Source of the DNA: a virus
DNA: 41,425 nucleotides
IMG/VR virus record: IMGVR_UViG_3300010399_000056
Location: 1 to 41,425 of that record
Reading direction: 5' to 3' (one strand)
The notes under the pieces are model-generated. The model saw nothing but the letters and a program-made list of their open reading frames with translations, had not been told where the DNA came from and did no database searches. How positions within the stretch are numbered: the stretch's first letter is position 1; every line of letters begins with the position of its first letter. Shown here one piece after another: positions 22,122 to 40,732 of this stretch. A program made the translations under genes and the position numbers.

Positions 22122-22148
22122 GCGCCCCGAAGGGCGCGGGTTGGTTTA
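22122..22148 (-). repeat. 27-bp repeated intergenic hairpin, copy 1
   Basis: Exact 27-bp match to 26724-26750. Read leftward it is TAAACCAACCC followed by GCGCCC-TTCG-GGGCGC, a UUCG-capped stem. It lies between a stop codon and the next ribosome site, like a 3'-end stabiliser or processing site. Confidence 0.85.
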
Positions 22149-22154
22149 GGCGGC

Positions 22155-22789: not shown

Positions 22790-22835
22790 GTACCGAACTA
22801 TACCACAAATAAAAACTTGTACAAGTATTTTATTT
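22764..22835 (-). repeat. 72-bp duplicated promoter segment, copy 1
   Basis: Matches 27160-27231 with one mismatch (G at 22773, C at 27169). It spans the end of the helicase gene, the operator palindrome, the promoter and the first codons of a leader frame. The two copies are 4396 bp apart in direct orientation. Confidence 0.92.
22797..22826 (-). promoter_or_regulatory. Leftward early promoter P1 with operator on its -35
   Basis: Read leftward: TTGTAC (-35, 22824-22819), 16 bases, TATAGT (-10, 22802-22797). The -35 is embedded in the perfect palindrome ACTTGTACAAGT (22815-22826), so a bound repressor would exclude RNA polymerase. It drives the cassette down to the 21460 terminator. Confidence 0.82.
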
Positions 22836-24209
22836 GTAGCCGCGTACCTTCATGGCGTCCAGCAGGATGTCCTGCACCTCGCGCTTGCTGTTCACCCGCT
22901 CGATCACCATCTCGTCCACCGTATCCGCAGCTATTATGTTGTAGATAAACATCGCCCGGTCGTGCCCGGCCTGCAGCTGCCGCGTGGGGCCGATCCGCTC
23001 GATGATCTGCATGCGCTCCTCCAGGTTCCACCAGTGCGAGAAGAACACCAGGATATTGCCGCCGTCCTGCAGGTTCAGCCCGTGGCCGGCGCTAGCCGGG
23101 TGGGCGAACAGCAACGGGATCCTGCCTTTGTTCCAGTCCTCGATGGTCTTGGGATCGGCGTCCAGCTGCCGGCCTTGGGGGAAAGCTTTCATCAGCCGGG
23201 CCAGGTCGGACTTGAAATGGTAGGCGACCAAGATCGGCATGCCTCCAGACTCCTCCAGGATGTCCTCCAGCGCGTCCAGCTTCGCGTCGTGGATGCCGCG
23301 CCACTCCTTGCCGTCGTCGCCAACATACGCCGCGCCGGACGCAATTTGCAAACATTTTACCGTCCTCGCAGCGGCGCCGAACGCCTCCACCTCGTGCTGG
23401 TCCAGTTCCATGAACATGCGTTTTTCCATGTCCTCGTACAGCGCCCGGGCCTTGGCCGGCAGATCGACGCGCACGTCGGTGACGACCGGCGCTTTCAGGT
23501 CAAACCAATCTTTGGCCTCGATGGTAATACACAGGTGCGCCAGCGCGCGCTGTATCTGCGCCTGGGCGTGGTCGCGCGGCGTGATCGAGTAGCCGTCGAA
23601 CGACTTTTCAAACCACCGCTGACGGAACGCGTCATAGGTCTTGCCGAGAGCCTGCCCGCGATCGAGGAACCACGCTTGCCCCCATAGGTCGGCCAGACCG
23701 TTGGGCGCCGGCGTGCCGGTCAGTTCGATGAACCGTTTCACCTTGGTGTGCGCCACCCGGCCCAGGGCCTTAGCGCGTGCGGTGCCTTGCCGCAGGCGGA
23801 ACCCTTTCAGCTTCGTCGACTCGTCGGCCACCACGGTGGCGAACGGCCAGCGCTCACCGAAGTGCTCCACCAGCCACGGCAACTGTTCGTAATTCGTCGT
23901 GTAAATATTGCTGTCGTACTTGAGCGCGGCCAGCCGTTCCTTTTCACTGCCGACGATCGGCGTCACCGACAGGTGTCGGAAATTGCGCCACTTGCGCGCT
24001 TCGTCCGGCCAGGTGGAGCGCGCCACGCGAAGCGGGGCAACGATCAGCACCGGGCGATTGTCCAGAAGCTGCAGCGTATCGACAGCGGCCAGGGTGGAGG
24101 AGGTCTTGCCCATGCCCATGCCCGCCCACGCCGCACCGCGCGGCGCGTCCAGCATGTGGTCGATGATCAGCTCTTGATAAGGGCGAGGGGTGAATTCGCG
24201 GGCGGTCAC
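22830..24209 (-). CDS. SNF2-type DEAD-box helicase/ATPase
   Basis: A 459-residue superfamily 2 ATPase likely used in replication or recombination. Motif I is AGMGMGKT (Lys35), motif II is VVADESTKLK, motif III is ELTGTPAPN, motif V is SAGHGLNLQ and motif VI is IIERIGPTRQ. The spacing and the PRPYQELIIDHML opening match phage SNF2-like helicases. The start is GTG 24209, overlapping the upstream stop (GTGA). The last bases lie in the 72-bp promoter repeat. It works with the polymerase and VRR-NUC genes of the same transcript; a direct replicative role is inference. Confidence 0.93.
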   Translation of the reverse strand: MTAREFTPRPYQELIIDHMLDAPRGAAWAGMGMGKTSSTLAAVDTLQLLDNRPVLIVAPLRVARSTWPDEARKWRNFRHLSVTPIVGSEKERLAALKYDSNIYTTNYEQLPWLVEHFGERWPFATVVADESTKLKGFRLRQGTARAKALGRVAHTKVKRFIELTGTPAPNGLADLWGQAWFLDRGQALGKTYDAFRQRWFEKSFDGYSITPRDHAQAQIQRALAHLCITIEAKDWFDLKAPVVTDVRVDLPAKARALYEDMEKRMFMELDQHEVEAFGAAARTVKCLQIASGAAYVGDDGKEWRGIHDAKLDALEDILEESGGMPILVAYHFKSDLARLMKAFPQGRQLDADPKTIEDWNKGRIPLLFAHPASAGHGLNLQDGGNILVFFSHWWNLEERMQIIERIGPTRQLQAGHDRAMFIYNIIAADTVDEMVIERVNSKREVQDILLDAMKVRGYK

Positions 24210-24439
24210 TCGGATTTCTCCATGTGCGGCACCTCAAACACGCCCATATCGGGCAGTTCCAGAATGCCTTTGTCCGCCAGCAGTTCGATAAGCGCGGCGT
24301 TTTGCTCGGCCACCCGCTTGGCATAATTGAATACCTGCCGCACGTCGTCGGGGTCGACCATGTAGTCGTCTACCTCCACCACGTGGGCCAGGCGTTTTTC
24401 TTCGGCGCGGTACGTGCCCGGGTTGACGATCACTCGCAT
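24206..24439 (-). CDS. Small acidic protein, function unknown
   Basis: A 77-residue protein overlapping the gene before it by 10 bases and the helicase after it by 4. The start MRVIVNPGTYRAEEKRLAHVVEVDDYMVDPDDVRQV looks like a beta hairpin followed by a helix, then NYAKRVAEQNAALIELLADKGILEL. The C terminus is acidic. There are no known motifs. The tight overlaps suggest coupled translation with the helicase and perhaps a physical partnership, which is inference. Confidence 0.65.
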   Translation of the reverse strand: MRVIVNPGTYRAEEKRLAHVVEVDDYMVDPDDVRQVFNYAKRVAEQNAALIELLADKGILELPDMGVFEVPHMEKSE

Positions 24440-24813
24440 ACGGCCACCTCCTCGACTTCATCGCCGAACGCGGCCCGCACGACGGCGCGGCAGATGGCCA
24501 CCTGGGGGGTGGGGCCGTAGGAGTACATCGACCTTCCGCGCCAGTACAGGGCCTGCCAGCGCTTCGTGTCGGTGTTGACTTCCAATTCGATGTTGTGCTG
24601 CTCCAGCAGCGCGCCGGCCAGGTTCCAGTCGTCGCTGTAATCCAGCCGCTCCACGCGCGAGCTGGTGAAGCCCACCGGGTGGGCCAGATCAACGCAAATC
24701 AGCGTATCGGTGCGCGGCACCCGGCGAATCTTCAGGCGCTCGGCCGGGATGCCCTGCGCGCGGGCGGTGTGGTAGTCCAGCTGTGCGCCGGTCAGGTCAG
24801 CGGTGCGGATCAC
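24430..24813 (-). CDS. NinX/DUF2591-like protein
   Basis: A 127-residue protein with GTG start 24813 (GTGA overlap). The start RTADLTGAQLDYHTARAQGIP is the characteristic opening of DUF2591 (phage NinX): a short motif, LTG-xLDY-WVA. The middle YSDDWNLAGALLEQHNIELEV and the C-terminal GPTPQVAICRAVVRAAFGDEV also fit the family pattern (W-xxGG-x-IIE, GPTPLIAAMR). DUF2591 genes are common in the early regions of phages of Gram-negative hosts; their role is not established. Some domain members have a conserved YSP or SW sequence that is altered here. Confidence 0.8.
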   Translation of the reverse strand: MIRTADLTGAQLDYHTARAQGIPAERLKIRRVPRTDTLICVDLAHPVGFTSSRVERLDYSDDWNLAGALLEQHNIELEVNTDTKRWQALYWRGRSMYSYGPTPQVAICRAVVRAAFGDEVEEVAVCE

Positions 24814-25355
24814 GATTGCACCTCAGTAAGTGCACGGAGCTTTTGCATAGCCTCGGTTTGGTGTTTGGCGCCCAGCAGATCCCACAACGATTGCAGCGCA
24901 TCGGTCGCACACTGAGCCGCCACCCCGTCGCTGGTGTAGCCTTTCGCCCAGTGTGGGCGCAGCTTCTCCAGGCGCTCCACCTGGTCGCGCAGCGCTTTGT
25001 TCTCCGCCGCCAGCTTGTTGGCGTGGGCCTGCGCGGCGTGCAACAAGGCTTCCGTCTTGCCCGCACGGCGCCCCATCAAGATAAACGATTCCTGCTCTTG
25101 GGTCACAGGCGGCGCCGGGAACGTACCAACCATCACGACAGGGTGCTGGCGACCAGGTGCGCGCACGTGCAGCGCGATACCGCCGCCGGCCAGCAGCTCG
25201 GCCAGGTCGTCCGGCTCGGGCTGCCAGAAGCTGACAGCGAACTGACCGTGCTCGGTGTCTTGGTACATCACCGGCAGCGCATCGCAGCTACCGTCTTGCA
25301 TATCGCTCGGGGCGCCAAGCTGGTGGGCGCATGCGGGGTGGTTGATGATTTTCAT
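24810..25355 (-). CDS. Early protein with Trp-rich N terminus and coiled coil
   Basis: A 181-residue protein; ATG 25355 overlaps the upstream stop, and an earlier in-frame start is less likely. Residues 1-75 contain CAHQLGAPSDMQDGSCDALPVMYQDTEHGQFAVSFWQPE, which looks like a short conserved phage domain that recurs at the N terminus of early proteins. Residues 75-90 are QEQESFILMGRRAGKTEAL; GRRAGKT resembles a P-loop but lacks a matching Walker B. Residues 95-125 form a coiled coil (AQAHANKLAAENKALRDQVERLEKLR). The C terminus is helical. Function unknown. Confidence 0.65.
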   Translation of the reverse strand: MKIINHPACAHQLGAPSDMQDGSCDALPVMYQDTEHGQFAVSFWQPEPDDLAELLAGGGIALHVRAPGRQHPVVMVGTFPAPPVTQEQESFILMGRRAGKTEALLHAAQAHANKLAAENKALRDQVERLEKLRPHWAKGYTSDGVAAQCATDALQSLWDLLGAKHQTEAMQKLRALTEVQS

Positions 25356-25540
25356 TTCGGTTTGTCCTCGGTGAGTTTGCGAATTTCCAGCCACACCCGG
25401 CTTTGCGCCAGGGTAAATTCCTCGCGGATGTGCATGGCGGTGTGCGGGTCTTGCGCGCCGGCGTGCGCGTTGTCGTCGGCGCTTTCGATCAGCGCGCAGA
25501 TCAGGCCGCGCAGGCGGCGCGCTTCTTTTTCGGTGATCAT
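25352..25540 (-). CDS. Small helical protein, function unknown
   Basis: A 62-residue protein linked to both neighbours by ATGA overlaps. Predicted all-helical: TEKEARRLRGLICALIESADDN, a short Gly/Pro break, then THE-type polar residues followed by MHIREEFTLAQSRVWLEIRKLTEDKPK. One Cys. There is no membrane segment or zinc motif. Coupled to the VRR-NUC gene, it could be an accessory subunit, but no evidence identifies it. Confidence 0.6.
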   Translation of the reverse strand: MITEKEARRLRGLICALIESADDNAHAGAQDPHTAMHIREEFTLAQSRVWLEIRKLTEDKPK

Positions 25541-25881
25541 TTGTCGCCTTTCAATTTATGGTTAATGCCCAGCACCTGGTCGACGGCAGCGAAGCTGTCC
25601 ACCACCTTCACGCGCTGCCCCATCCGGCGCATGCGGGTGTGTTCGCGCATCTGGTGTGGTTCGGGCAGCACGCCGGGTGCTTTCAGCTCGACCCAGATAG
25701 TGCGCCCGTCGTCCGAGCCGTAGGTGAAACGTTCTGCAGCGGGCGGCAGCATAACTAAGCGGTCAGGCGCCCCGGTGCGGCCGATCCAGCGAACTTTGCG
25801 CACCTCGCCGCCCAGCAGTTTCACCTGTTGCACCAGGTAGCGCTCTATGTCGCGCTCGCGGATTGGTTTATTCGCGGGCAT
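25537..25881 (-). CDS. VRR-NUC domain nuclease
   Basis: A 114-residue PD-(D/E)XK nuclease of the VRR-NUC family, likely a structure-specific or Holliday-junction-type nuclease in phage recombination. The motif pieces are RERDIERYLVQQVKLLGGEVRKV (N-terminal helix with Glu), the GAPDRLVML aspartate and the catalytic IWVELKAPG (E-x-K). A C-terminal HQMREHTRMRRMGQRVKVVDSF fits the rest of the fold. ATG 25881. Standalone VRR-NUC genes next to SNF2 helicase and polymerase are a common phage replication set. Confidence 0.92.
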   Translation of the reverse strand: MPANKPIRERDIERYLVQQVKLLGGEVRKVRWIGRTGAPDRLVMLPPAAERFTYGSDDGRTIWVELKAPGVLPEPHQMREHTRMRRMGQRVKVVDSFAAVDQVLGINHKLKGDK

Positions 25882-26248
25882 TTATAACCTCGCACGCTTC
25901 GTTCAACAACGCGATGATGGCGCTGGCTTCCTGATCGGTCAGCATGTACGAGTCGGTGAAAGAAACACCCTCGGCGTCAAGCACTGCGGCCATGTAAGCC
26001 ACCAACAGATTGCGGTAGTCCGGCGCAAACGTGATCGTCTCGTCGTGGGTCTGTTGGCGCATTTCCGCATTGACCAGCGCGCCGGGGTGGACCTGGAGCA
26101 GCGCCAGCACCAGCGGCTGGAAGTCGGCCTGTGCGTGCTCCAGCACGGCCTCGGCGCGCAGCCGGTCGTCGTGGGCGTAGACGCGCACGGTGGCAACAGT
26201 TTCCAGGGTCTTGGGGTGGCGGGCATGCAGCCAAACTTCGTATTTCAT
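25868..26248 (-). CDS. Early protein, function unknown
   Basis: A 126-residue protein starting at ATG 26248; the open frame extends upstream but that part overlaps the previous gene. The N terminus is a beta hairpin-like segment (KYEVWLHARHPKTLETVATVRVYAHDDRLRAEAVLEHAQ). The C-terminal half is helical (LLVAYMAAVLDAEGVSFTDSY, DQEASAIIALLNEACEVI). No catalytic motif. It overlaps the VRR-NUC start by 14 bases. Nothing links it to a family I recognise. Confidence 0.65.
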   Translation of the reverse strand: MKYEVWLHARHPKTLETVATVRVYAHDDRLRAEAVLEHAQADFQPLVLALLQVHPGALVNAEMRQQTHDETITFAPDYRNLLVAYMAAVLDAEGVSFTDSYMLTDQEASAIIALLNEACEVINARE

Positions 26249-26258
26249 TTTGGACCTT

Positions 26259-26705
26259 TCAGTCGGTGGAAGATGGCACATCGCAGGACGTGCTGCCGGT
26301 GTCGCTTGGCGCATCGCAGCGGGCTTGCTGCTCCTGCCAAAATTCATTGAGCGCCGGATGGGCGCAACGGAACTCGTGCACAACGCTTTCGGACTGCTGC
26401 ACACCGTAGGGCGCGGCCAGCTCTTTGCGGAACGCAGCGGCTCGCTGGTCGGCGCGCTTCTCTTCTTCGGCAGCAGCGGCGTATCGGCCGCTCTGGATAG
26501 CTGCCTGGCGCTCGGCCTCGCGCTCCTTGATCTTGGCACGTTGTTCCGGCGTCAGGTTGCGCGGGTGGCGGGGATCGTCCATCGGAGTCACCTTGTTGCG
26601 CTTTGGCTGGCCAACTTCGGAATGGGTCCAGAACGTGGCGGGCGCGGCGTGCTCGACCTCGCGGCGCTTGCGGGCGATATTGAAGGGCCAGAAATTGAAC
26701 ATCAT
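26259..26705 (-). CDS. Early protein with charged helical region, function unknown
   Basis: A 148-residue protein starting ATG 26705 with AAAGGAAAC upstream. The N terminus MMFNFWPFNIARKRREVEH is aromatic then basic, and could be membrane-associated. The central part (LTPEQRAKIKEREAERQAAIQSGRYAAAAEEEKRADQRAAAFR) is a charged helix, and the C-terminal part has HPALNEFWQEQQARC and a Ser/Thr/Asp-rich disordered end. CCCTCTCGAT and the second copy of the 27-bp hairpin lie just upstream. It may be a membrane-proximal host-takeover factor, but this is guesswork. Confidence 0.6.
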   Translation of the reverse strand: MMFNFWPFNIARKRREVEHAAPATFWTHSEVGQPKRNKVTPMDDPRHPRNLTPEQRAKIKEREAERQAAIQSGRYAAAAEEEKRADQRAAAFRKELAAPYGVQQSESVVHEFRCAHPALNEFWQEQQARCDAPSDTGSTSCDVPSSTD

Positions 26706-26723
26706 GTTTCCTTTATCGAGAGG

Positions 26724-26750
26724 GCGCCCCGAAGGGCGCGGGTTGGTTTA
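26724..26750 (-). repeat. 27-bp repeated intergenic hairpin, copy 2
   Basis: Identical to 22122-22148. Here it begins with the TAA stop of the upstream zinc-finger gene and continues into GCGCCC-TTCG-GGGCGC. CCCTCTCGAT follows it directly on the leftward strand. Confidence 0.85.
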
Positions 26751-27140
26751 GAAAGCGTAGGCGGCCAGCGAATACTTGGCGGCGATTTCGGCGCGCTTTG
26801 CGCTAGCAGCATCCGAAGTAGCGCGGCAGAACTCGCGGAACGCAATGCCGATCAATTTAGCTTTGTGCGCTTCGTTCATGCGGGCGTTCGCGGTCATTTC
26901 CTCGTTGCTGTCGCGCAATTCAACGCGGGCCAGATGCACGCGGCGGTCATGTTCGGCTTTCGCTTCGGACTTGATGGCTTTGGTATCGCGGCCACTGTGG
27001 CGGGCTGCGCATACCGAACCGAAATACAGGACTTCGCCGTCATCGCGCTCCATGGCGACAGTCGATTTCAGGTTCGACTTACCGCAGCAATCGCAGGTGT
27101 TCACATCATCAACGATTGCCAGAGTCTTGTAAGTTGCCAT
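26748..27140 (-). CDS. Zinc-finger-like early protein
   Basis: A 130-residue protein. ATG 27140 has the ribosome site AAAGGGCA; an in-frame ATG at 27185 would add MDAAIGAAGMKGQDI and could be used by a leaderless transcript. Residues 5-45 hold CDCCGKSNLKSTVAMERDDGEVLYFGSVCAARHSGR. The pattern C-x-C-C-G-K-x2-L-K, an FGSVCA second site and a downstream His resemble a small treble-clef or zinc ribbon found in phage early proteins. The C-terminal part is helical. Probably DNA or protein binding. It is the sole gene of the second promoter cassette (P2). Confidence 0.72.
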   Translation of the reverse strand: MATYKTLAIVDDVNTCDCCGKSNLKSTVAMERDDGEVLYFGSVCAARHSGRDTKAIKSEAKAEHDRRVHLARVELRDSNEEMTANARMNEAHKAKLIGIAFREFCRATSDAASAKRAEIAAKYSLAAYAF

Positions 27141-27159
27141 GATGTCTTGCCCTTTCATC

Positions 27160-27231
27160 CCCGCCGCGCCAATCGCTGCGTCCATGTACCGAACTATACC
27201 ACAAATAAAAACTTGTACAAGTATTTTATTT
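27160..27231 (-). repeat. 72-bp duplicated promoter segment, copy 2
   Basis: Matches 22764-22835 with one mismatch. It begins with the stop codon of the DNA polymerase gene, as copy 1 begins with that of the helicase. Both carry operator, promoter and first codons of a leader frame. Confidence 0.92.
27193..27222 (-). promoter_or_regulatory. Leftward early promoter P2 with operator on its -35
   Basis: Same as P1: TTGTAC, 16 bases, TATAGT (27198-27193), with the palindrome ACTTGTACAAGT at 27211-27222 covering the -35. It re-initiates leftward transcription after the polymerase gene. Confidence 0.82.
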
Positions 27232-29620
27232 AATCCTTGCGGTAGCGATCTGCCTCAAAGCCAGCCGCAGCCAGCGGCAAGCCGGTCGCCCAGTCCGGCA
27301 CGCGCGCCATGAGCGCGGCCAGGTGCTCCGGGTTCCAATCCGGACTATCCGGGGCCTCGCAAATTATTTCGTCGTGCACAGTGAGGGTGATCTCGTAACC
27401 CTGGGCCTCGATTTCGTGCATGTTGGCTGCCATCACGTCGCGCGCGATTGCCTGGCAAATGTTTTCACAAATCATGCCCCCGTATGTGTGGATGCGCTCC
27501 CACTTCCGGGTGTATTGATTCATGCCCATGTACGAAATCGAGGTGCGGCCGCTGGCCGGCGCTTCCTCTTCCAGCTCGGCCTCTGCCTCGTGCTCGTTCT
27601 TGACCTTCTTTTTCTTCTCGGGCACCAGGGCTGGGCCGGGGTAGCACAGCGCGCGACCGGACGGCAGCACGATGCGCAGCCAGGCGCCATCACGTCGAAC
27701 CCGCACCTTGCCGCACTGGATCGTCACACCGGGGTTGGTGATGGCTTCGCGCACACTGACGTCGAGATCTTTCCAGAATTGTTTAACGTTGGCGTGGGCG
27801 TCACGCCAGCCCAGCACGAACGCTTCGCACACCAGCCACGCGCGCTCGCTCAGCCCGGTCAGTTTCAACGGGTTACGGCCGTGCTTCTGATGCCATTCCA
27901 GCATGATGCGAGAGCGGCCCATCACCTCGCCGGGGATCGCGCGGTGGGCCTTCTCGGCCATGTCCTCCAGGTCGATGCCGTAGGTCGCGGCACCGGTCAT
28001 GTACGCGCCCACCCCGCCCTCGTATCCAAGCATCAGCTCCTGCACCTTGCCGATCTGGCGCTGGTCTTTGGACACGTCTGATGGCGAAACGCCAAACGAC
28101 TTGGCGTAAGACAGCTTGTACAGGTCCGGACCGCGCCGCACGGGCTCGTCTTTGGCGTCCAGCTCCAACTCCGGCGCGGCGCCGGCTAGGCAAGCCTCGT
28201 AGTAATCCGGCCCCCGCATCCAGCTGCCGTTCTCCAGCATGAGGGTGTCGAACTCGGCGAACGCTTTCAGCTTCCATTGCTCGCCAGCCACCCAGGCTAA
28301 CACCCGGCCCTCGATGTTCGACAGGTCGGCCACCACCAGTTTGCGGCCGGGCGGCGCCACGATGCACCCCCGGATGGTGGAGCTGGTCAGCTTCATGACG
28401 TTATCGAACAGCAGATCGGCGTAGCCGCCTTTCAGGGCTTCAATGCCCTCGGTAATCTGCGGTGCCGGCAGCAGCCCGCGCGAGGGCAGGTTCTGCGGCT
28501 GGAACAGGCGCCCCGCCCACCTCCCGGTGCGGCTGGCGCCACAGAACTGCAGCAGCCCGCGCAAGCGGCTGTCGGCGCTGGTGCAACGGATCAGCACCCG
28601 GTATTTGCTGGTGCTGGTGGTGGACGCCTGGAGCCGGACGCGCAGTAGCTCTTTCAAGCCCTCGGGGATATCCGGGTCAGCGATACGCCGCTCCAGCGTG
28701 TCCTTTTTCATGTCGGGCAGGTCCACGCCGTACTCGGCCAGCAGGTACTCCAGCAGCTTGTCGCGCTGGGTGGCCGACTCAATGCCCTCGCCCGTCTCTG
28801 GATCGTAACCGGTCATCTGCTGGGCCTTCTCGCGCAGGACGATCTGCGCGGCGTCGACGGCGTTCACCGCGCATTCGGCCAGCTCCAGGTCGATCATGGC
28901 GCCGCGGTCGTTGATCAGCTGGTCAAGCTGCCACAGTGCCAGCTCCGCGCCGCGGTAATTCCACATCGGCATGATCTTGCTGGCCGCGCGCATGGCCACG
29001 ATGTCCTGGCCGGCATAGATCAGGAACTTGTGCCACTCAGCTGGGTGCGTGTCGCGCGTAGCGCGGCCGGCCCACGTCGCCGCGGCGGCCTCTTTCGCTG
29101 CCTTGTAGTCGGCCAGCTTCTCGCCGCCGGCGGTATCGCGCTTGCGGAACTTGAAAGCCTGGGGTTTGCAAAAAAGCTGGATCAATGCCTTGCCCGCTTT
29201 GTCCTTCGCCTTGTCCTCGGGGAGCTTAAGCGCCATGCACATTTGTTCCAGCTTGCCGGGCAGGCCGTGCGCCATGGCCTGCACCATGGTATCGCGCCAG
29301 CGGTGCAATGGGATTTTTAGTCCGGCCACGCGTTCCACGGTGCGGTCAAAACGGGAATTCTGAGCCCACACCTCGCCATCGCCGTTGCGCAGCTCGTCGT
29401 CAATCGCTTCGACATATTCGGCCGGCGCCAGCACCAAGTCGTCGTCGTCCACCAGCAGCCAGTCCTCACCGCCGGGCGTCAGGTCGCGCACCAGGATAGG
29501 GCCATCGCCCAGCGCCAACGCGCGGATCATGATTTCCACACCTTCGCTATAGCGGTCCACCCCGTTGGTGATCTGGAAGGGAGAAAAGGTTTCGTCGTCA
29601 AGCCAAACGCGGGTCGTCAT
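27230..29620 (-). CDS. Family A DNA polymerase
   Basis: Replicative polymerase of 796 residues. An N-terminal 3'-5' exonuclease is recognisable from LDDETFS (D-x-E, residues 8-10), NSRFDRTVERV and YAGQDIVAM. The polymerase has motif A (VVADLSNIEGRVLAW, near residue 440), an O-helix region KVQELMLGYEGGVGAY (motif B), and motif C TVHDEIICEAP near the C terminus. Acidic-basic insertion KKKKVKNEHEAEAELEEEAP lies between motifs B and C and is probably a surface loop. The start ATG overlaps the upstream stop. It is transcribed leftward from P3. Confidence 0.96.
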   Translation of the reverse strand: MTTRVWLDDETFSPFQITNGVDRYSEGVEIMIRALALGDGPILVRDLTPGGEDWLLVDDDDLVLAPAEYVEAIDDELRNGDGEVWAQNSRFDRTVERVAGLKIPLHRWRDTMVQAMAHGLPGKLEQMCMALKLPEDKAKDKAGKALIQLFCKPQAFKFRKRDTAGGEKLADYKAAKEAAAATWAGRATRDTHPAEWHKFLIYAGQDIVAMRAASKIMPMWNYRGAELALWQLDQLINDRGAMIDLELAECAVNAVDAAQIVLREKAQQMTGYDPETGEGIESATQRDKLLEYLLAEYGVDLPDMKKDTLERRIADPDIPEGLKELLRVRLQASTTSTSKYRVLIRCTSADSRLRGLLQFCGASRTGRWAGRLFQPQNLPSRGLLPAPQITEGIEALKGGYADLLFDNVMKLTSSTIRGCIVAPPGRKLVVADLSNIEGRVLAWVAGEQWKLKAFAEFDTLMLENGSWMRGPDYYEACLAGAAPELELDAKDEPVRRGPDLYKLSYAKSFGVSPSDVSKDQRQIGKVQELMLGYEGGVGAYMTGAATYGIDLEDMAEKAHRAIPGEVMGRSRIMLEWHQKHGRNPLKLTGLSERAWLVCEAFVLGWRDAHANVKQFWKDLDVSVREAITNPGVTIQCGKVRVRRDGAWLRIVLPSGRALCYPGPALVPEKKKKVKNEHEAEAELEEEAPASGRTSISYMGMNQYTRKWERIHTYGGMICENICQAIARDVMAANMHEIEAQGYEITLTVHDEIICEAPDSPDWNPEHLAALMARVPDWATGLPLAAAGFEADRYRKD

Positions 29621-29943
29621 AGGAGGTCACTAAAATCATCTTCAAGGGTTTCAAAATCGTCCGCCAGGAACAGCGCTACGACGCGTTCGCACGTGGCCAC
29701 GTCGAACATTTGCATATGCGCCTGGTGCTTCGGGATGCCGAGGCGCCGCGCCAGTTCGCTATACGCCCGGTTGCGGGTCATACGGCCCGACTGCCACAGC
29801 GGGTCGAACGCGGCGTGAGCCGCAATGCGCGCTTTGGCCAGGTCGCTGCCGGGCTCGGCGGGCTTTCCGTAATGCCGGGGTGTACGCCGTCCACGGCTGC
29901 GGCCGTAGATGATGTAATCCTCGTTGTCGTCAAAGTAGCTCAA
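29617..29943 (-). CDS. DUF3268-like protein lacking its zinc finger, with acidic tail
   Basis: A 108-residue protein; the start is TTG 29943, overlapping the HNH gene. Residues 30-90 (PGSDLAKARIAAHAAFDPLWQSG, RNRAYSELARRLGIP, HMQMFDVATCERVVAL) match the C-terminal half of the DUF3268 family. The usual N-terminal Cys4 finger is replaced by a Tyr/Arg-rich segment without cysteine pairs. The C terminus LADDFETLEDDFSDLL is nearly identical to a linker in the primase-helicase. This may be a replication accessory protein docking on a shared partner. ATGA overlaps the polymerase start. Confidence 0.7.
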   Translation of the reverse strand: MSYFDDNEDYIIYGRSRGRRTPRHYGKPAEPGSDLAKARIAAHAAFDPLWQSGRMTRNRAYSELARRLGIPKHQAHMQMFDVATCERVVALFLADDFETLEDDFSDLL

Positions 29944-30304
29944 GTTGTTCGTTCCACATATCCGGCCAGGTAAAAGCGCCCTTGGCCGCGTTTTCGCGCC
30001 AGTGCACTACGCGCAAATTCCAAGGCGCGTGCAGTCCGCACACCGTCTTGCCCATCTTCGGCACGATGTGGTCGACCACATACAGCTCGCCTGTCCAGCG
30101 CGTCAAACGCCGGGCCTGCGCGTAGGCGCGGGCGATCTGCTGGCGCTGCTCTGCTGTCAACCAGGGCGGCGTGGCGCGGCGCGTTTGCGCCCGGTGCACT
30201 ATGCCCTCTTTACCCTTTGGCCGCACCGGCATTCGCTGTTTGCGAATCACGAACAGCGGGCCGACGTGAAAGCCATCGGGCAGCGGCAAAGGGCGCTGGG
30301 TCAT
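29930..30304 (-). CDS. HNH endonuclease (early region)
   Basis: A 124-residue protein from ATG 30304 (ATGA overlap). The HNH core is clear at residues 74-105: ELYVVDHIVPKMGKTVCGLHAPWNLRVVHWRENAAKG, with the paired DHI, then HAPWNL and the N-x3-K end. The N-terminal part is basic and helical (TAEQRQQIARAYAQARRLTRW). Such early HNH proteins in phage replication regions may nick DNA or aid recombination; homing activity is possible, but no intron or intein is associated with it. Confidence 0.85.
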   Translation of the reverse strand: MTQRPLPLPDGFHVGPLFVIRKQRMPVRPKGKEGIVHRAQTRRATPPWLTAEQRQQIARAYAQARRLTRWTGELYVVDHIVPKMGKTVCGLHAPWNLRVVHWRENAAKGAFTWPDMWNEQLELL

Positions 30305-30558
30305 GCCAGACCTTTGCGCTTGCGGTAGTTGTCCATCAAAATGTCGTCGCCTTTCGGGCAGCGGTCCAGGGCATGCCATGCGCCGGGTTTTTGCGATTCC
30401 AACTTGTCACCAAGTGGGGTAACGCAACATTGCCACAGGCGCCAGGATTTCGGGCCGTTGCGCCGCGGGCTGGCCAGCAGGTACAGGCGCATGTAGGTCG
30501 CATCCAGTTTGCGCAGCCGTTCTATCTGTGCCTTGCGGCGTCGTTTCTTCGCGCTCAC
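30301..30558 (-). CDS. Small basic protein, function unknown
   Basis: An 85-residue protein. GTG 30558 is preferred to earlier in-frame starts because AGGAGCGG precedes it and GTGA overlaps the upstream stop. The N terminus is very basic (SAKKRRRKAQIERLRKLD). A WRLWQCCVTPLGDKLESQKPGAW segment and RCPKGDD follow. Three Cys (CC, C) do not form a standard finger. Probably nucleic-acid binding. Confidence 0.6.
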   Translation of the reverse strand: MSAKKRRRKAQIERLRKLDATYMRLYLLASPRRNGPKSWRLWQCCVTPLGDKLESQKPGAWHALDRCPKGDDILMDNYRKRKGLA

Positions 30559-30731
30559 AGCCCGCTCCTGGCCCTGCCGTGACGGAGTGCGCCGCAAGCG
30601 CATTTGAAAACGCCGACGCGGCGCACGTGTTTGGTTGTGCCGCGCGCGGTCATTTTGATATCGACCAGCGTGCGGTCTTCGGCCCAATCCCATTTATGTT
30701 TGGGGCCAAGGGTGCAGGGTTTAGTTTTCAT
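30555..30731 (-). CDS. 58-residue zinc-knuckle-like protein
   Basis: Not detectable by length cut-offs, but well supported by context: ATG 30731 overlaps the upstream stop, and the TGA overlaps the GTG of the next gene. Sequence begins MKTKPCTLGPKHKWDWAEDR, continues with a strand-like VDIKMTARGTTKHVRRVGV, and ends in FKCACGALRHGRARSGL. CAC plus an upstream Cys and His could bind one metal ion. The pattern (HKWDW, then KCACGA) resembles one-finger phage proteins. Function unknown. Confidence 0.65.
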   Translation of the reverse strand: MKTKPCTLGPKHKWDWAEDRTLVDIKMTARGTTKHVRRVGVFKCACGALRHGRARSGL

Positions 30732-31051
30732 TTTGGCCAGTACTCCTGTGGTATGTCGTCATGCGCCACGTCCTGGGCGCGCGCCTGGTTATAAAAGCCG
30801 TGCGGGTGTTGGGCGCACAGCGGGTGGGTGGTGCGGTGTGGGAAGTGCTGCCCCGCACCTGTGGCCGACATATCCGGCCCGCTGCAGTGGCACAGCCCGC
30901 GCTTGTTATACGCCCTGGCCTCAATGCGCCACCCCTTGCGGCTGCCGCACATCGGGCATTTCGGCACCACCTTGTATTCGTCCGGGTGGGTGCGCGTCAC
31001 GCGCCGGTGGCGGCAGGCCGAATGCCTGCAGCGCACGCTGTAAGTGGTCAT
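30728..31051 (-). CDS. Zinc-ribbon protein, function unknown
   Basis: A 107-residue protein. The N-terminal CRHSACRHRRVTRTHPDEYKVVPKCPMCGSRKGWR is a C-x4-C ... C-x2-C zinc ribbon; CHCSGPD and a CAQHPHGFYNQ tail may hold a second site. Many His and Cys point to metal binding. ATGA overlap with the 58-residue gene. Probably DNA or protein binding in the replication block. Confidence 0.7.
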   Translation of the reverse strand: MTTYSVRCRHSACRHRRVTRTHPDEYKVVPKCPMCGSRKGWRIEARAYNKRGLCHCSGPDMSATGAGQHFPHRTTHPLCAQHPHGFYNQARAQDVAHDDIPQEYWPK

Positions 31052-31066
31052 GGCTGCCGACTTCGC

Positions 31067-31249
31067 TTACTGCTCGGCGGCCATTTCAGCGCCCAGCAGC
31101 GCCACCGCCATCATGGCGTGTCCTTCTGGGTACTTGGCGACGATAGCGCGGATTTCCTGCTCGGCCGCTTTCACCTTGGCTTGGTTTTCGGGGCTTTGCT
31201 CCGCGATCGTGCCGCGAATGATCCGCAGCGTTTGTTTTTCTGGGGTCAT
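31067..31249 (-). CDS. Small helical protein, function unknown
   Basis: A 60-residue protein; ATG 31249 is favoured over one 12 bases upstream by the ribosome site TGGAGGAC. The sequence is one long charged helix and a second short one: TPEKQTLRIIRGTIAEQSPENQAKVKAAEQEIRAIVAK, then EGHAMMAVALLGAEMAAEQ. No motif. It follows the SSB-like gene after a UUCG hairpin. Confidence 0.6.
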   Translation of the reverse strand: MTPEKQTLRIIRGTIAEQSPENQAKVKAAEQEIRAIVAKYPEGHAMMAVALLGAEMAAEQ

Positions 31250-31263
31250 GGTGTCCTCCAAAT

Positions 31264-31281
31264 GGCCCGCCGAAGCGGGCC
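31264..31281 (-). other. UUCG intergenic hairpin after the SSB-like gene
   Basis: Read leftward: AACCC followed by GGCCCGC-TTCG-GCGGGCC, ending 14 bases before an ATG with GGAGG. It resembles the repeated 27-bp hairpin in shape and in the AACCC prefix. No T-run. Confidence 0.6.
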
Positions 31282-31290
31282 GGGTTGCAA

Positions 31291-31842
31291 TTAGGCCAGA
31301 TCGTCGGCGTCGGTGCCGTCGCCCAGGTCGTCGAAGTCGGATTCGTCCGCCGCTACGCCACCACCGGAAAACGCGTCCCCTGGTCCGTAGAACTGGACGC
31401 CGCCAAGCTGCGCGTTGATCCGCTTGCCGTACTGGTTATCCTGTGCCCACAATTCCAGCGACACATTGCAGTAGCAGCCCGAGTAAAGCACGCCGTCCTC
31501 TTCTACCAGCGGGGTTTTGTCACGGTTCAACGCCAGTGGGCGCACCGCACTGGTGGACGAAATGAACATCATGCCTTCAAAGCCTTCGTAGCTGGCCTTG
31601 CTGTCGCCGTCTTTCAGACACAGGCGGCCGCCCGATTTCAGTTCTTTGTAGATGGCGTCGGCCTTAGCACCCCACTTCTCTTTGCACACTGCCTTGATGG
31701 CTTCTTCGATGGTTTTGATCTGTGGGTCTTTCGGGTCGATCAGCCAGGAAGCGCCAAACACCGGCTTGTCGCCGCCGTTGACGGCTTCGGCCTTGAACAC
31801 TTTCAGGAATGCGGCGCGCACGTTGGTCAGTTTCAGTTTCAT
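31291..31842 (-). CDS. Single-stranded DNA-binding protein, DUF2815 type
   Basis: A 183-residue protein matching the DUF2815 family, proposed phage SSBs with the T7 gp2.5-like fold. It begins KLKLTNVRAAFLKVFKAEAVNGGDKPVFGASWLIDPKDPQIK and has YEGFEGMMFISSTSAVRPLALNRD, GCYCNVSLELWAQDN and GKRINAQLGGVQFYGPGDAF. The Gly-rich hinge and strongly acidic end (DESDFDDLGDGTDADDLA) are what an SSB protein-interaction tail looks like. The gene lies between DUF2800 and small genes in the P3 transcript, the usual company of DUF2815. Confidence 0.9.
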   Translation of the reverse strand: MKLKLTNVRAAFLKVFKAEAVNGGDKPVFGASWLIDPKDPQIKTIEEAIKAVCKEKWGAKADAIYKELKSGGRLCLKDGDSKASYEGFEGMMFISSTSAVRPLALNRDKTPLVEEDGVLYSGCYCNVSLELWAQDNQYGKRINAQLGGVQFYGPGDAFSGGGVAADESDFDDLGDGTDADDLA

Positions 31843-31859
31843 AATTTTTCTCTTTCAGG

Positions 31860-33434
31860 TTAAGCCAGGTCGGCGAAATCGTCGTCCGCTGGCAGGGTTT
31901 CAAAATCGTTTTCAACTTGCGGCGGCTGCCAGGCGGGCCGGCGATCGCTCGCCGGCGCAACCGAGGGCTTGCCGTCGCTACGGGTGATCAGGTTTTGCAG
32001 CTTGGCCCACTGCTTCGCGCCGATCAGCGGCTTGCCCTTCTCGTCCATCGCGGTGGTCAGCTTCTCCGCGCTGGTCGGGCTGATAAGGGTGAAGTCGTAC
32101 ATTTCTTCCTTCTTCAATCTGAACGACTTGAGCATGGCTTCGGCTTCCATTTCGTCCGAGAACTTGCGGTTGCCCTGCTTGCCCTCCACCAGCTTCCAGC
32201 CCGGCATGGCGCGGCCGGCCAGCAGTCGGCGCTCCATTTCCGCGCGCACTGCCTTGGCCCAGCCTTCCACCAGGTCCACGGCGTCCATGCACACCGCCAG
32301 GTGCCCGTCGTCCACGTTCGCCAGCCGGGTTTCAGCGCCATCAAGTGCCGGCCGGAGGGTCGGTTTCTTGATGGTGAAGCAGGCCGGGAACGTGTAGTTA
32401 GGATCGTCGTTTTCACCGGTGCCCGCCGGCTCCGCTTCGTGAAAGTCCACCGCCTTCGGCGCCACACCGTGCGCCACCGCCAAGATCTTTTCGGCATCGG
32501 CGATCGATACGGCAACTTCTCCTTTACCCAGCTTGATCAGGTTGTCGATCACGGGCAAAGGCACTTCCACCAGGTCGTCCTCGCCGATAACCGTTTCGGT
32601 CATCGCCTCGAAGTCACCTGCCACCGTGGCCAGCACCTGGTCGCGCAGCGCCGGGCAGCTGCCCTTCGCTTTGCAGAAGCGGCATTGGTCGTCGCCGGGC
32701 TTGAGCGCGTCGAGCGTGGCCGCGCCGATGTCGCCGCATTGCGCATCGCTGTGAGCCAGGAACATTGCTGCATTCGCTGCCTTGAGAGCTTCGGCCTCGA
32801 ACTCGAGCAGCTCTTCTACGGACACCACATACTCGTCGAAGTGATTCAGGCGAGGCTGGTGAATCCAGATCCGAACCCATTTGATCTCATTCAGCAGACT
32901 GTGCTCGCGGTAGGCTGCAACGCCGTAAAGCATCAGCTGGGGGTTGCCCCGGCGACGTTCCGGGTTTTCTGGCGTCGGTGCCGGGTACGAGGCGAACACC
33001 TGAACACCACGGCCGTATTTCAGGTCGCCCACCTCGAGCTCTTCGGCCAAAAAATCAAGGATAAGCGCATCTGTCGTGCCGAACTGGTCCGGGATCTCGC
33101 CTTCGAAGAACGACAGCCGCTGCTCCACCAGTAGTACTTTTCCGCTGGATCGGTTGCGAACCAGATCAATGTACTTCTGCACCTCGGTCGCCATTTCCGG
33201 GGTGATGGTCGCCATCTTCGCCACCCCGTGGTCCAGGTAGCTGAACGGCTTGCCCACGAACACCGCTGCGTCGAACTCCTGTTCAAGGCAACCGGCGGCC
33301 AAGGCGTGGGCCAGCGTGCCCTCTTCGGCGAACTCGCTGGAGCTGTCGGGCACGCCGGATTCCATCGCCAGCGAGCCGGCGCAGGCCATCCAGCGGTGCG
33401 CCGAGGACGGCGAGAGTTTAGCGTGTTCAGCCAT
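31860..33434 (-). CDS. DUF2800 family PD-(D/E)XK nuclease
   Basis: A 524-residue protein of the DUF2800 family, related to Cas4/RecB-type nucleases. The opening [21 protein letters not shown] and [16 protein letters not shown] are diagnostic. The nuclease core is [26 protein letters not shown] (D...D-x-K), followed by [24 protein letters not shown] looks like part of a metal or Fe-S site, as in Cas4-type proteins. The acidic end [14 protein letters not shown] repeats the shared tail motif. ATG 33434 is chosen; a GTG six bases upstream is an alternative. Likely an exonuclease in recombination or replication. Confidence 0.88.
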
Positions 33435-33612
33435 TGGCACCCCCGAACATCTTGAGCATTTTGATCATCGGCTTGGTGGTCTGCCCGGTCACGCTGATAT
33501 CGAGGATTTCACCGTCCGTTTTGCAGACCACATATTCCACCTCGGCGGCCTGGTCCATCTTCTGGAGCCGTGCCACCACTTCGGCGATCGTGCGTTTTTG
33601 TTGGCTAGCCAT
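33427..33612 (-). CDS. Small protein of the replication block, function unknown
   Basis: A 61-residue protein from ATG 33612 (ribosome site AAAGGTGG inside the previous gene). It is an N-terminal helix ([16 protein letters not shown]) with two strands ([21 protein letters not shown]) and a final helix ([11 protein letters not shown]). It overlaps the DUF2800 start. One Cys. No family recognised. Confidence 0.65.
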
Positions 33613-33712
33613 TTGGCACCACCTTTCCGTGTTCAACACGCCACCGCAGGCCGATCAGCGCGCAGGCAAAGCGCACGGCCTCGGCCATCGGTTTTGTCGT
33701 GGTTCCGGCCAT
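33605..33712 (-). CDS. 35-residue peptide of the replication block
   Basis: Sequence begins MAGTTTKPMAEAVRFACALI and continues with [15 protein letters not shown] before TAG. The short gap after the upstream stop (TGATCATG) and overlap with the next ATG support translation. A helix with one Cys and a basic strand. No known function. Confidence 0.55.
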   Translation of the reverse strand: MAGTTTKPMAEAVRFACALIGLRWRVEHGKVVPNG

Positions 33713-33714
33713 GA

Positions 33715-34167
33715 TCAGGCGGCCTCGATATCAGCCAGGAACGCGGCCAGGTCCGCCTGCGCCACCTGGCTGCCCGACTTCGCTTTGTACTTGCCCAGCA
33801 GCGCCAGCCCGGCTTCGCGGCCTTTGGCTTTCAGGAAGGCTTTGAACTTCTCTTCCACGTCCTTGGCGTAGTCCAGTTCGGTGACCGGCTCGCCGCTGCC
33901 GGCCAGATCTTCCTCGGCGGCCTTGTCCGCTTCCGCTTCCGCTTCCTTGGCCGCCTTGGCCTCAGCTTCCGCTTTTTTCTTCGCTGCCAGTTTCGCCTCG
34001 CCCCCGGCGATGGCCTGTTTAATCAGTTCTTCCTTCGACTGCGTGGCCTTTACTTCCGTTTTGACGGCGACTGCCGGCGCGCCGTTTGCGCCGGACATGT
34101 TCAGGATGGCCGAGGCCAGTTCACGGATGGCGGCGGCGTGGTCGTTGATTGCTTGTTCAAGGGACAT
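33715..34167 (-). CDS. Coiled-coil protein, first gene of the leftward early operon
   Basis: A 150-residue protein starting ATG 34167 with GAAAGGAAA upstream. Residues 1-25 are a helix, residues 35-95 are a highly charged Ala/Glu/Lys coil (EAKLAAKKKAEAEAKAAKEAEAEADKAAEE), and residues 96-150 a compact helical domain (VTELDYAKDVEEKFKAFLKAKGREAGLALLGKYKAKSG then QADLAAFLADIEAA). This C-terminal domain occurs in early genes next to DUF2800/DUF2815. First in the P3 transcript, so abundant early. Function unknown. Confidence 0.7.
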   Translation of the reverse strand: MSLEQAINDHAAAIRELASAILNMSGANGAPAVAVKTEVKATQSKEELIKQAIAGGEAKLAAKKKAEAEAKAAKEAEAEADKAAEEDLAGSGEPVTELDYAKDVEEKFKAFLKAKGREAGLALLGKYKAKSGSQVAQADLAAFLADIEAA

Positions 34168-34207
34168 GCTATTTCCTTTCGGTTAGGGTTTGCGTTAATG
34201 CCCAGCC

Positions 34208-34238
34208 ATTAAGCCACAAGAAAAAACTTGTTGCAAGT
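34208..34238 (-). promoter_or_regulatory. Leftward early promoter P3 with variant operator
   Basis: Read leftward: ACTTGCAACAAGT (34238-34226) contains the -35 TTGCAA, then 17 bases and CTTAAT. The stretch from the operator through TTTGTGG-like bases closely resembles P1 and P2, so it is a diverged third copy. It drives the coiled-coil gene and the replication block. Confidence 0.75.
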
Positions 34239-34270
34239 CTTTTTCACAAAATATTTTTGTACTAAATTTT

Positions 34271-34316
34271 GCTTGTACAAGTTGACTTTTCCGCGCATAC
34301 TCCCGCTTGTACAACC
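34271..34316 (+). promoter_or_regulatory. Rightward promoter P4 with two operators
   Basis: TTGTAC (34273-34278), 17 bases, CATACT (34296-34301). Operators GCTTGTACAAGT at 34271-34282 cover the -35, and GCTTGTACAAC at 34305-34315 lies over the expected transcription start. It drives the Cro-like gene, implying strong autoregulation. Confidence 0.75.
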
Positions 34317-34332
34317 ACACATGGAGAACCGT

Positions 34333-34569
34333 ATGTCCCGTAAGAAGAAAGAACCGACCGGCATTGAAAAGGCGATCGCCGCCGCCGGCAGCCAGGCACA
34401 GCTGGCGCGCGAGCTGGGTTGCACCCAGCAGAATGTTAGCCTGTGGCTGGCGCAAGGCTGGGTGCCCGCCAAGCGCGCCCAGGAGATCGAGATGCTGCAC
34501 GGCGTGCCACGCAAATCGCTAGTGGATCCGCGCTTGCTGGAGCGACTGGATACCGAGGTGGGGCTGTGA
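34333..34569 (+). CDS. Cro/YdaS-like repressor
   Basis: A 78-residue DNA-binding protein. ATG 34333 has GGAG seven bases upstream; an ATG at 34321 in frame would add four residues. The helix-turn-helix is AGSQAQLARELGCTQQNVSLWLAQGWVPAKRAQEIEMLHG, the typical YdaS/Cro pattern with a Gly in the turn and Q-x2-V-S-x-W in the recognition helix. It lies directly after P4 with its two operators, so it should autoregulate and, through the same palindrome, repress P1, P2, P3 and P5. It has no dimerisation or cleavage domain like CI, so it resembles a lone Cro. Binding to the palindrome is inferred from location. Confidence 0.85.
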   Translation: MSRKKKEPTGIEKAIAAAGSQAQLARELGCTQQNVSLWLAQGWVPAKRAQEIEMLHGVPRKSLVDPRLLERLDTEVGL

Positions 34570-35075
34570 GCGCGCCAGCCGAGTTGCCGCCGCTGCCGCA
34601 TGCGTACCTCATCTACCAAGTCAGCAGCGATAGTGATTTCGCAAGCAACTGGGGATCCGCGTACACCGCCGACCAGATGCGCGAATACGGCAGGCAATGC
34701 GCTGCCCTCGCCACTGCTCCCGCATCCCCGCAGCCAGAGCTGAGCGGCAGTATCGATACAGATGAATTTTCAAAGCTCTTGGCCGAAGTCTCCATGTTGT
34801 GGTTGCAAGACCCACTTCGCTATGCACATGCGCGTGAGAAACTTGTCACCCACATCGACGCCTGGAAAGATGCCGCGCTGGCCGAGCTGCACCCGCTGTG
34901 GCTGGCCGAGAAGGAGCGCGCTGATAGGCTGCAAACCCAGTCCAACGAAGAGGCGCTCGACAAGCTGCTGGCCGACGTGCCCTCGTATTGCGTCCACCAG
35001 TTCGAGCCCGACGGACAATCGCACGGGAAAACCTTCTGGCGCTGCAGCAAGTGCGGCGCGGAGCGCCAGCGGTGA
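34566..35075 (+). CDS. Early protein with C-terminal Cys motif, function unknown
   Basis: A 169-residue protein with GTG start overlapping the repressor stop (GTGA). The opening PAELPPLPHAYLIYQVSSDSDFASNWGSAYTADQMREYG resembles a short phage domain (the Y-T-x-DQMR-xYG pattern) common in early proteins. The middle is helical with a probable coiled coil. The end CVHQFEPDGQSHGKTFWRCSKCGAERQR is a zinc-ribbon-like tail (C ... C-x2-C). Mixed domain make-up suggests a regulator or adaptor. Function unknown. Confidence 0.68.
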   Translation: MSAPAELPPLPHAYLIYQVSSDSDFASNWGSAYTADQMREYGRQCAALATAPASPQPELSGSIDTDEFSKLLAEVSMLWLQDPLRYAHAREKLVTHIDAWKDAALAELHPLWLAEKERADRLQTQSNEEALDKLLADVPSYCVHQFEPDGQSHGKTFWRCSKCGAERQR

Positions 35076-35284
35076 GAACCAACACGCATAAGCGGGGCAC
35101 GCACCGCCGCGACCGCAAGCCGAGCGGGCCTGTTCGCGTGCCCGATGCCGATGTACTGGCCATGCGCCATATGCACGAGGTCGAGCGCAAGGCGTTTCAC
35201 CTCGTGGCCCGTGCTTTCCCTCAGTACAGTGAAAATTACGTGCACCAGGTGCTGCAGTACTCCGTGCGCGCTGGCGTAAAATAG
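35072..35284 (+). CDS. Small basic protein, possibly DNA-binding
   Basis: A 70-residue protein, GTG start overlapping the previous stop. The N terminus is very basic (RTNTHKRGTHRRDRKPSG). The C-terminal half is helical: VLAMRHMHEVERKAFHLVARAFPQYSENYVHQVLQYSVRAGV, with a helix-turn-helix-like rhythm. Position right after the repressor suggests a regulator of early transcription. There is no firm match. Confidence 0.62.
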   Translation: MRTNTHKRGTHRRDRKPSGPVRVPDADVLAMRHMHEVERKAFHLVARAFPQYSENYVHQVLQYSVRAGVK

Positions 35285-35313
35285 TTGACACACGAACAAA
35301 AGGAACCCTCTCG

Positions 35314-35592
35314 ATGACCCGCATCAAACTTTTCCTGTTCTATTCGCTGATGGCCTGGGCCTCGGCAATCCGCCCCGAGGAGGGCGCCAAGATGATCGAC
35401 GACGCGGAGGCCGGGGCGCTCGAGCGTGCCCGGCGCCGACTGATCCACGATATCCACCACAACGGCGCCGTGCAACGTGAATTGCGCACGCCAGGCAACG
35501 GCACGGTAGCGCTGGCCATCACCCTGGCATTGATGGTCACGGGTGGGTGGATCGCGTTGCTGGTCGAGGCTGCCTTGGAGCTGATGCGATGA
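35314..35592 (+). CDS. Small membrane protein, function unknown
   Basis: A 92-residue protein. AAAAGGAA 10 bases before ATG 35314 is the ribosome site, and CCCTCTCGAT overlaps the start codon. The N terminus is moderately hydrophobic (IKLFLFYSLMAWASAI), the middle is charged (EGAKMIDDAEAGALERARRRLIHDIHHNG), and residues 66-88 (TVALAITLALMVTGGWIALLVEAA) form one confident membrane segment. Probably a tail-anchored inner-membrane protein. It could be involved in exclusion or host takeover. Confidence 0.68.
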   Translation: MTRIKLFLFYSLMAWASAIRPEEGAKMIDDAEAGALERARRRLIHDIHHNGAVQRELRTPGNGTVALAITLALMVTGGWIALLVEAALELMR

Positions 35593-35801
35593 AACACCTG
35601 GACGAAATCGAATATTACGCCGCCATTCGCGCCAAGGGCCGTGGCGTGTTCGCCGATGTGGTGGCCGACCGGCTGGGCATCGAGTGGAACCGGGCTGAAT
35701 ACCTGCTGGAGAAGTGGACGCGCGCCGGCTGGTGGGAATGGGGCGTTTCGCTGCGCTCGGGCTGGCTGACGGACGAGGCGCCGCAGGAGCTGACAGCGTG
35801 A
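35589..35801 (+). CDS. Small winged-helix-like protein
   Basis: A 70-residue protein; ATGA overlaps the membrane protein stop. The sequence KHLDEIEYYAAIRAKGRGVFADVVADRLGIEWNRAEYLLEKWTRAGWWEWGVSLRSGWLTDEA has the order helix, helix, recognition-like helix, then two Trp-rich strands, like a minimal winged helix. Phage genes of this type sit next to DNA methylases and regulators. Binding site and role unknown. Confidence 0.65.
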   Translation: MKHLDEIEYYAAIRAKGRGVFADVVADRLGIEWNRAEYLLEKWTRAGWWEWGVSLRSGWLTDEAPQELTA

Positions 35802-36307
35802 AACGTGTTCTTGATCCGTGCTGCGGCAGCCGCATGATGTGGTTTGACAAGGCTGACCCCCGCGCCGTTTTCGGCGACCAGCGCAGCGAAACAATTGTGG
35901 TTACAGATCGCACACACTGCGACGACGGAACGCGCACCTTGCAGATCACTCCGGATACCGTTATGGACTTTCGGGCAATGCCGTTCGCCGACGATAGCTT
36001 TCGCCTAATCGCCTTTGACCCGCCCCACTTGGAGCGCGCAGGCCCGAAAAGCTGGCTGGCGGCGAAGTACGGCAAGCTTTCCGACGACTGGCGCGCCGAC
36101 CTGCGCGCCGGCTTTACGGAATGCTTCCGTGTGCTGGAGCCGGAAGGCGTGCTGGTGTTCAAGTGGAATGAAACCCAGGTAAAGCTCAAGGAAGTGCTGG
36201 CGCTCACCTCACACCGGCCGCTGTTCGGGCAGGTAAGCGGACGCGCAGGCCTCACGCATTGGCTGGTGTTTATGAAGTCTTCGGACGATTTTGCCGATCT
36301 GTTATAA
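35798..36307 (+). CDS. DNA N6-adenine-type methyltransferase
   Basis: A 169-residue class I SAM methyltransferase with GTG start overlapping the upstream stop. Motif I is VLDPCCGSRMMWFD, motif IV is AFDPPHL (DPPx, typical of amino-group DNA methylases such as N6-adenine or N4-cytosine types), and the late FKWNETQVKLKEVLAL with HWLVFMK completes the fold. It probably protects phage DNA or marks it. The exact target is not visible because the TRD is minimal. It ends in SSDDFADLL, the same acidic tail as the nuclease and replication proteins. It ends just before P5. Confidence 0.87.
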   Translation: MKRVLDPCCGSRMMWFDKADPRAVFGDQRSETIVVTDRTHCDDGTRTLQITPDTVMDFRAMPFADDSFRLIAFDPPHLERAGPKSWLAAKYGKLSDDWRADLRAGFTECFRVLEPEGVLVFKWNETQVKLKEVLALTSHRPLFGQVSGRAGLTHWLVFMKSSDDFADLL

Positions 36308-36318
36308 CTTTTTGATCT

Positions 36319-36347
36319 AACTTGTACAAGTTTTGCCGGGGTACAAT
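36319..36347 (+). promoter_or_regulatory. Rightward promoter P5 with operator
   Basis: AACTTGTACAAGTT (36319-36332) is a perfect 14-bp palindrome. TACAAT at 36342-36347 is a good -10. The TTGTAC -35-like hexamer is only 14 bases away, so the exact -35 is unclear. A start near 36354 would place the 5' end of the RNA at the beginning of the structured leader. Confidence 0.7.
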
Positions 36348-40722: not shown

Positions 40723-40732
40723 GGAGAACAGC

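Follow-up and report, generated by a model that had tools for sequence, protein, structure and literature searches.

In the cryptic prophage CP-933P of E. coli O157:H7, YdaS has been shown experimentally to be a Cro analogue that represses PRM, PR and a PL promoter (PMC8630535). The phage gene described here, which is predicted to encode a 78-aa YdaS/Cro-like repressor, resembles it in being divergent from a leftward operon, the CP-933P operators being located at PRM and PR (PMC8630535). On the other hand, CP-933P has a CI analogue (PaaR2), YdaT and 18-bp operators, whereas in the window (the whole stretch of DNA that was analyzed, 41,425 bp) neither gene was found and the repeated word is a 12-bp palindrome which, unlike the CP-933P operators, also occurs at internal operon promoters. 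The Bordetella phage BPP-1, whose immunity region contains bbp31 cro and bbp32 cI, has replication operons homologous to those of the window, and one word, ATGCGYNNRCGCAT, is likewise used at cro-cI and one left promoter (five sites). In contrast with the window, BPP-1 has CI and an integrase, and its Cro belongs to another HTH type and has an operator unrelated to that of the window. The OR/OL regions of lambda are similar in that a small Cro repressor is combined with several operators, located both in divergent early promoters and in distant ones, whereas the window has no CI, no bistable switch, and single sites at internal promoters. Finally, TgrL of the lytic phage phiCbK is an XRE-type regulator that is made early, but it acts mainly on host genes (PMC10688885), whereas the sites considered here are in the phage genome. 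Based on these comparisons and on the sequences described below, we consider it likely that the palindromes serve as operators for the 78-aa repressor that the phage itself encodes, which would shut the early promoters down by feedback.

The window is the whole of virus record IMGVR_UViG_3300010399_000056, a tailed phage with tape-measure and tail-fibre genes, in which intergenic DNA accounts for 6.3% according to our gene calls and a tRNA search found none. From 34.2 to 22.1 kb the minus strand carries the left early operons, with genes for a DUF2800 exonuclease, an ssDNA-binding protein, a family A polymerase and an SNF2 helicase, and the right early genes (Cro-like protein, methyltransferases, primase-helicase and HNH) are on the plus strand between 34.3 and 41 kb. 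The predicted repressor gene (34333-34569, plus strand; recognition helix TQQNVSLW) heads the rightward early operon, and three operator-like sites lie between it and the divergent leftward operon. In profile searches its product scored 47.7 bits against PF15943, above the curated cut-off of 30, and 28.0 bits against P22_Cro (PF14549), below the cut-off of 30.2. A Cro-type HTH fold is predicted by its AlphaFold model (pLDDT 84), whose closest structure was Xfaso 1 Cro (PDB 3bd1, TM 0.84), also the closest solved structure by sequence (E 2e-4), followed by N15 Cro with its operator, and with P22 Cro and YdaS lower. Pfam scans revealed no other HTH gene in the window. YdaS was absent from plasmids, and the bacterial genome collection gave one weak match only; no YdaT family was found among the early ORFs in a Pfam scan whose sensitivity had no control.

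A reading made from the sequence alone (hereafter the sequence-only reading) had placed six palindromic sites in intergenic DNA, and all six strings were found at their positions, each entirely within intergenic DNA. Three of these candidate operators, to which no strand is assigned, have the form ACTTGTACAAGT: one in a leftward promoter directly after the helicase gene (22815-22826), one in a leftward promoter directly after the DNA polymerase gene (27211-27222; extended -10 TATAGT), and one in P5 (36320-36331; -10 TACAAT at 36342-36347). The other three lie just upstream of cro, in a region that could be aligned with that of G014 (IMGVR_UViG_3300030732_000036, detected through its helicase), the closest of the relatives found. 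The candidate PL operator ACTTGTTGCAAGT (34226-34238) overlaps the -35 of the leftward promoter and is imperfect (CTTG-N3-CAAG, 13 bp), with TTGTTGCAAG kept in G014. The two at PR are O1, GCTTGTACAAGT (34271-34282), of which CTTGTAYA is kept in G014, and O2, GCTTGTACAAC (34305-34315), which reads CTTGTACAAC, is imperfect in one half, lies between the -10 and the cro start, and has its TTGTACAA core kept in G014. Two further words were absent from the sequence-only reading. Between PL and PR, at 34254-34270, there is a conserved TTTTTGTAC-T-AAATTTT, a possible extra operator (TTTTTGTACTAAATTTT) that is kept in G014 according to the alignment, and CTTGTTCAAG at 34152, within the first left gene, may be due to chance.

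The palindrome is strongly enriched: four copies of CTTGTACAAG are present in the window compared with a mean of 0.0125 and a maximum of 1 in 400 dinucleotide shuffles, and five copies of TTGTACAA compared with a shuffle mean of 0.16, and no AT-rich 10-bp palindrome exceeded two copies in any shuffle. The sites at 22815 and 27211 should be counted as a single event since both lie in copies of an 87-bp repeat (duplicated promoter modules D1a, 22749-22835, and D1b, 27145-27231, both on the minus strand, 93% identity), and PL aligns with both modules, so that the three promoters are probably of common ancestry; the PR O1, PR O2 and P5 sites are separate occurrences. This recent duplication and shared ancestry, together with the fact that the -35 falls inside the word in four promoters, would fit the idea that the word is only shared, duplicated promoter sequence around the -35, palindromic in form but with no regulator. 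However, the PR O2 and P5 sites have no -35 function, a -35 does not require the symmetric outer bases, G014 has a copy of TTGTACAA before TerS with no matching promoter seen, and many phages show an enrichment of TTGTA half-sites in the region preceding cro. Thus, we regard mere promoter duplication as very improbable. Downstream of each duplicated module there is an identical 28-bp hairpin sequence (22122-22149 and 26724-26751), with no U-tract in the direction of transcription. In addition, the leaders at 22749-22790 and 27145-27187 can encode MDAAIAAAG/MDAAIGAAG, which resemble the Cro N-terminus IEKAIAAAG, and judging from this similarity the module may carry a remnant of the cro 5' end.

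With regard to the promoters themselves, the palindrome overlaps the -35 at PL, PR O1 and the two internal left promoters, but not at P5. At PR, TTGTAC of O1 (34273-34278) forms the -35, 17 bp ahead of CATACT (34296-34301). Apart from P5, the -35 hexamers are weak (TTGTAC or TTGCAA), with about 8 of 12 matches counting the -10 where scored. In P5 the distance from TTGTAC to TACAAT is 14 bp, a non-canonical spacing, and the palindrome is therefore not usable as its -35. The statement of the sequence-only reading that all visible early promoters carry the palindrome appeared to be too strong, because of this short P5 spacing and because at least one early promoter-like site that it had missed, TTGACA-17-TAAGCT at 40579, has no palindrome.

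The sequence-only reading had also proposed a search for a palindrome that covaries with the recognition helix in related phages, and such covariation was observed. G014 (81% identity to the window in helicase, 67% in polymerase and 75% in TerL; recognition helix TQQVVSHW) has TTGTACAA at matching slots, that is, upstream of cro, just after the helicase (L172 11387), before a methyltransferase gene and before TerS, as well as degenerate forms at PL and PR O1 and TAGTACAAC after the polymerase. Its P5 slot, before the methyltransferase gene, reads AATTTGTACAAATA...TATACT with an ordinary 18-bp spacer. The copy before TerS (L253 5712-5719) lies about 25 bp ahead of that gene and downstream of a TTGACT-type promoter; the window record stops just short of the corresponding position. 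In the more diverged G001 (IMGVR_UViG_3300046684_000128, polymerase about 60%), whose recognition helix, SGQAVGTW, is unlike that of the window, a different common operator, CTTGCGCMAAC...TTTRGTTGT (also given as CTTGCGCMAAC...TTTRGTTGTCCTATAST), is present at PL, PR, after the polymerase (3357), after the helicase region (7161) and at one more site, and CTTGTACAAG is absent from all of these sites. The G001 cro (L160 9736-10101) encodes a tandem two-HTH protein of 121 aa, and G017 and G018 seemingly have similar fused forms. In a third relative, G011, ACTTGCATTTGCTTGT is present both at cro and within the left operon, and the site that follows the polymerase (10639) is a version with two mismatches. 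Among 14 relatives, TTGTACAA was present in 6 of the regions upstream of cro (0.19 in shuffles, with a maximum of 3 in 2000), and TTGTA/TACAA half-sites were counted 48 times there versus 10.8 expected and a shuffle maximum of 24. Six of the nine phages with a QQ helix had TTGTACAA versus none of the five without it (p 0.028, a post hoc value from few, partly related phages); one phage, L214, has an SQQ helix yet lacks TTGTACAA. This group may therefore be seen as a natural set for how a repressor and all of its operators change together, with several of the same slots retained and both word and helix swapped.

These data bear on the possibility that the palindrome is recognized by a transcription factor of the host, which would then control the early promoters. 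Although promoter-overlapping palindromes are typical of host regulators too, the relatives retain the slots, whereas the word at these slots is exchanged jointly from phage to phage along with the repressor, which argues for a phage-encoded rather than a host regulator, and the sites are clustered around the phage's own cro gene. Control by the host has, in our view, little chance of being correct. No literature match was found for TTGTACAA as a known operator; in one paper that contained the word, it came from cloning primers. It is also conceivable that some other phage protein, so far unrecognised, binds the sites, or that they are used for activation rather than repression, for example at P5: many of the small early proteins have no family, and P5 has no good -35, which is frequent in activated promoters. 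Nevertheless, the Pfam scans detected no HTH gene besides YdaS/Cro, differences in the operator word among relatives go along with differences in the Cro recognition helix, and the P5 slot of G014 is ordinarily spaced, so that this explanation also seems improbable. Repression by the phage's own Cro is the reading that we retain.

We next consider CI, for which the sequence-only reading had seen no counterpart. The analysis agreed: no HTH_3 or S24 match was found in the window beyond cro, and the scan of early ORFs showed none. The integrase family PF00589 is absent from the window and present in G003 and BPP-1, and no lysogeny module was found in the window, serine integrases and partition genes having been covered by Pfam scans alone. 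Thus, neither of the two features of a lambda-type lysis/lysogeny switch, a CI-type gene sharing the operators and an integrase/lysogeny module, was seen in the window. Across the relatives, G003, BPP-1, G020, G021 and G022 each have an integrase together with a second HTH gene, of CI size, next to cro, and in some of these integrase-bearing phages the CI-sized gene has the same TQQ-type helix; both genes are missing from the window, G001, G014 and G018. The correlation is imperfect, since G016 and G023 have a larger HTH gene and no integrase match. In both the window and G001 the left-hand neighbour of cro is the bbp35 homologue (named after the BPP-1 gene), which leaves no slot for CI. As virus records may be incomplete, such absence is no proof, but we infer that CI was lost rather than never present. 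Most likely, the window carries a Cro-only derivative of the early-control region of BPP-1-like temperate phages.

The following scheme of control is what we infer from the sequences with respect to Cro binding, dimer mode, repression and timing. A Cro dimer would bind the CTTGT/ACAAG half-sites and block RNA polymerase; the half-sites overlap the -35 at PL, PR O1 and the two internal left promoters, the start region at PR O2, and the core at P5. Early in infection the promoters would be free to fire. As Cro builds up from PR, it would repress PR and the replication operons, resulting in negative feedback and early shut-off. With an architecture presumably derived from the CI/Cro region of BPP-1-like temperate phages but with CI and integrase absent, the network would be Cro-only, and the role of Cro would be the timing and dosage of early genes instead of a switch. 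The phage thus probably keeps a Cro-type repressor to turn off early genes after their work is done, which raises the question of the purpose of a Cro with no competing CI. With regard to the one-repressor regulon that had been proposed earlier, a single operator set tied to the phage Cro was supported, but the arrangement is not unique: the design is known from early control in BPP-1-like temperate relatives, of which this would be a CI-less form. For a site bound by a Cro-type dimer, a palindrome of 12 bp is short (434 and lambda Cro-type sites are within 14-18 bp, and the CP-933P operators are 18 bp), and the true footprint may therefore be longer or in another register, which at the left promoters may be, for example, ACAA-N8-TTGT.

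P5 reads straight into a predicted structured RNA element, E1 (36356-36459, plus strand; RNAfold z -7.1 to -7.8), whose folding begins at about +2 of P5. The layout of E1 comprises a 5' tail (GCCAAACCTT), a 22-bp stem, two apical hairpins and a U-tract, directly followed by the SD of a C-5 cytosine DNA methyltransferase gene (36471-37945, plus strand; PF00145, E 1.5e-27); the ten-base tail is perfectly complementary to an apical AAGGTTTGGC. A second predicted element, E2 (40617-40725, plus strand; z -8.5), has the same plan but a different sequence, with a 5' hairpin loop GGCAAA complementary to an apical loop UUUGCC, and precedes a gene located a short distance ahead of the terminase genes, with its own TTGACA promoter-like site and no palindrome. 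G014 has homologues of both elements (L253 892-1000 and 4822-4938), and G018 (IMGVR_UViG_3300034069_000811) has E1 only (L260 919-1033), upstream of a methyltransferase gene. E1 precedes DNA methyltransferase genes that are unrelated, and GGAGTGCCAATTG is conserved in the window and G014.

The proposed pairings are supported by sequence changes. Between the window and G014, five of the six E2 loop-loop pairs have changed on both sides with pairing kept, and in E1 the tail-loop pairing has one compensatory change and the long stem has six, compared with 13 relative to G018, all counted on hand-made alignments. The tail-loop complement exceeded that of shuffles in four of the five copies (fractions 0.0006-0.0022; 0.15 in G018). 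Rfam had no counterpart, its four matches being all far under the gathering score and taken as chance; a scan of IMG/VR for the E1 apical motif matched G014 and G018 only, and exact scans for the promoter and for the E1 stem gave no match outside the window. A loose palindrome-plus--10 scan of viral contigs was discarded as it returned AT-rich, unrelated contigs. Simple attenuation is disfavoured for both elements: the bases with which the tail pairs are not those needed by the terminator arms, and because of this a pseudoknot or kissing-loop fold seems likelier. E1 and E2 may each function as a small RNA on its own, as a terminator whose fold is locked, or as a regulatory leader of the next gene. 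Whether transcription from P5 yields a structured phage RNA of a new class, with E1 and E2 as discrete small RNAs or next-gene leaders and E1 under Cro, is in our estimation evenly balanced. These elements appear to represent a conserved, unclassified phage RNA. Finally, clustered, foldable repeats of GGAAGG/CCTTCC are located at 40069-40213, between the primase-helicase and HNH genes.
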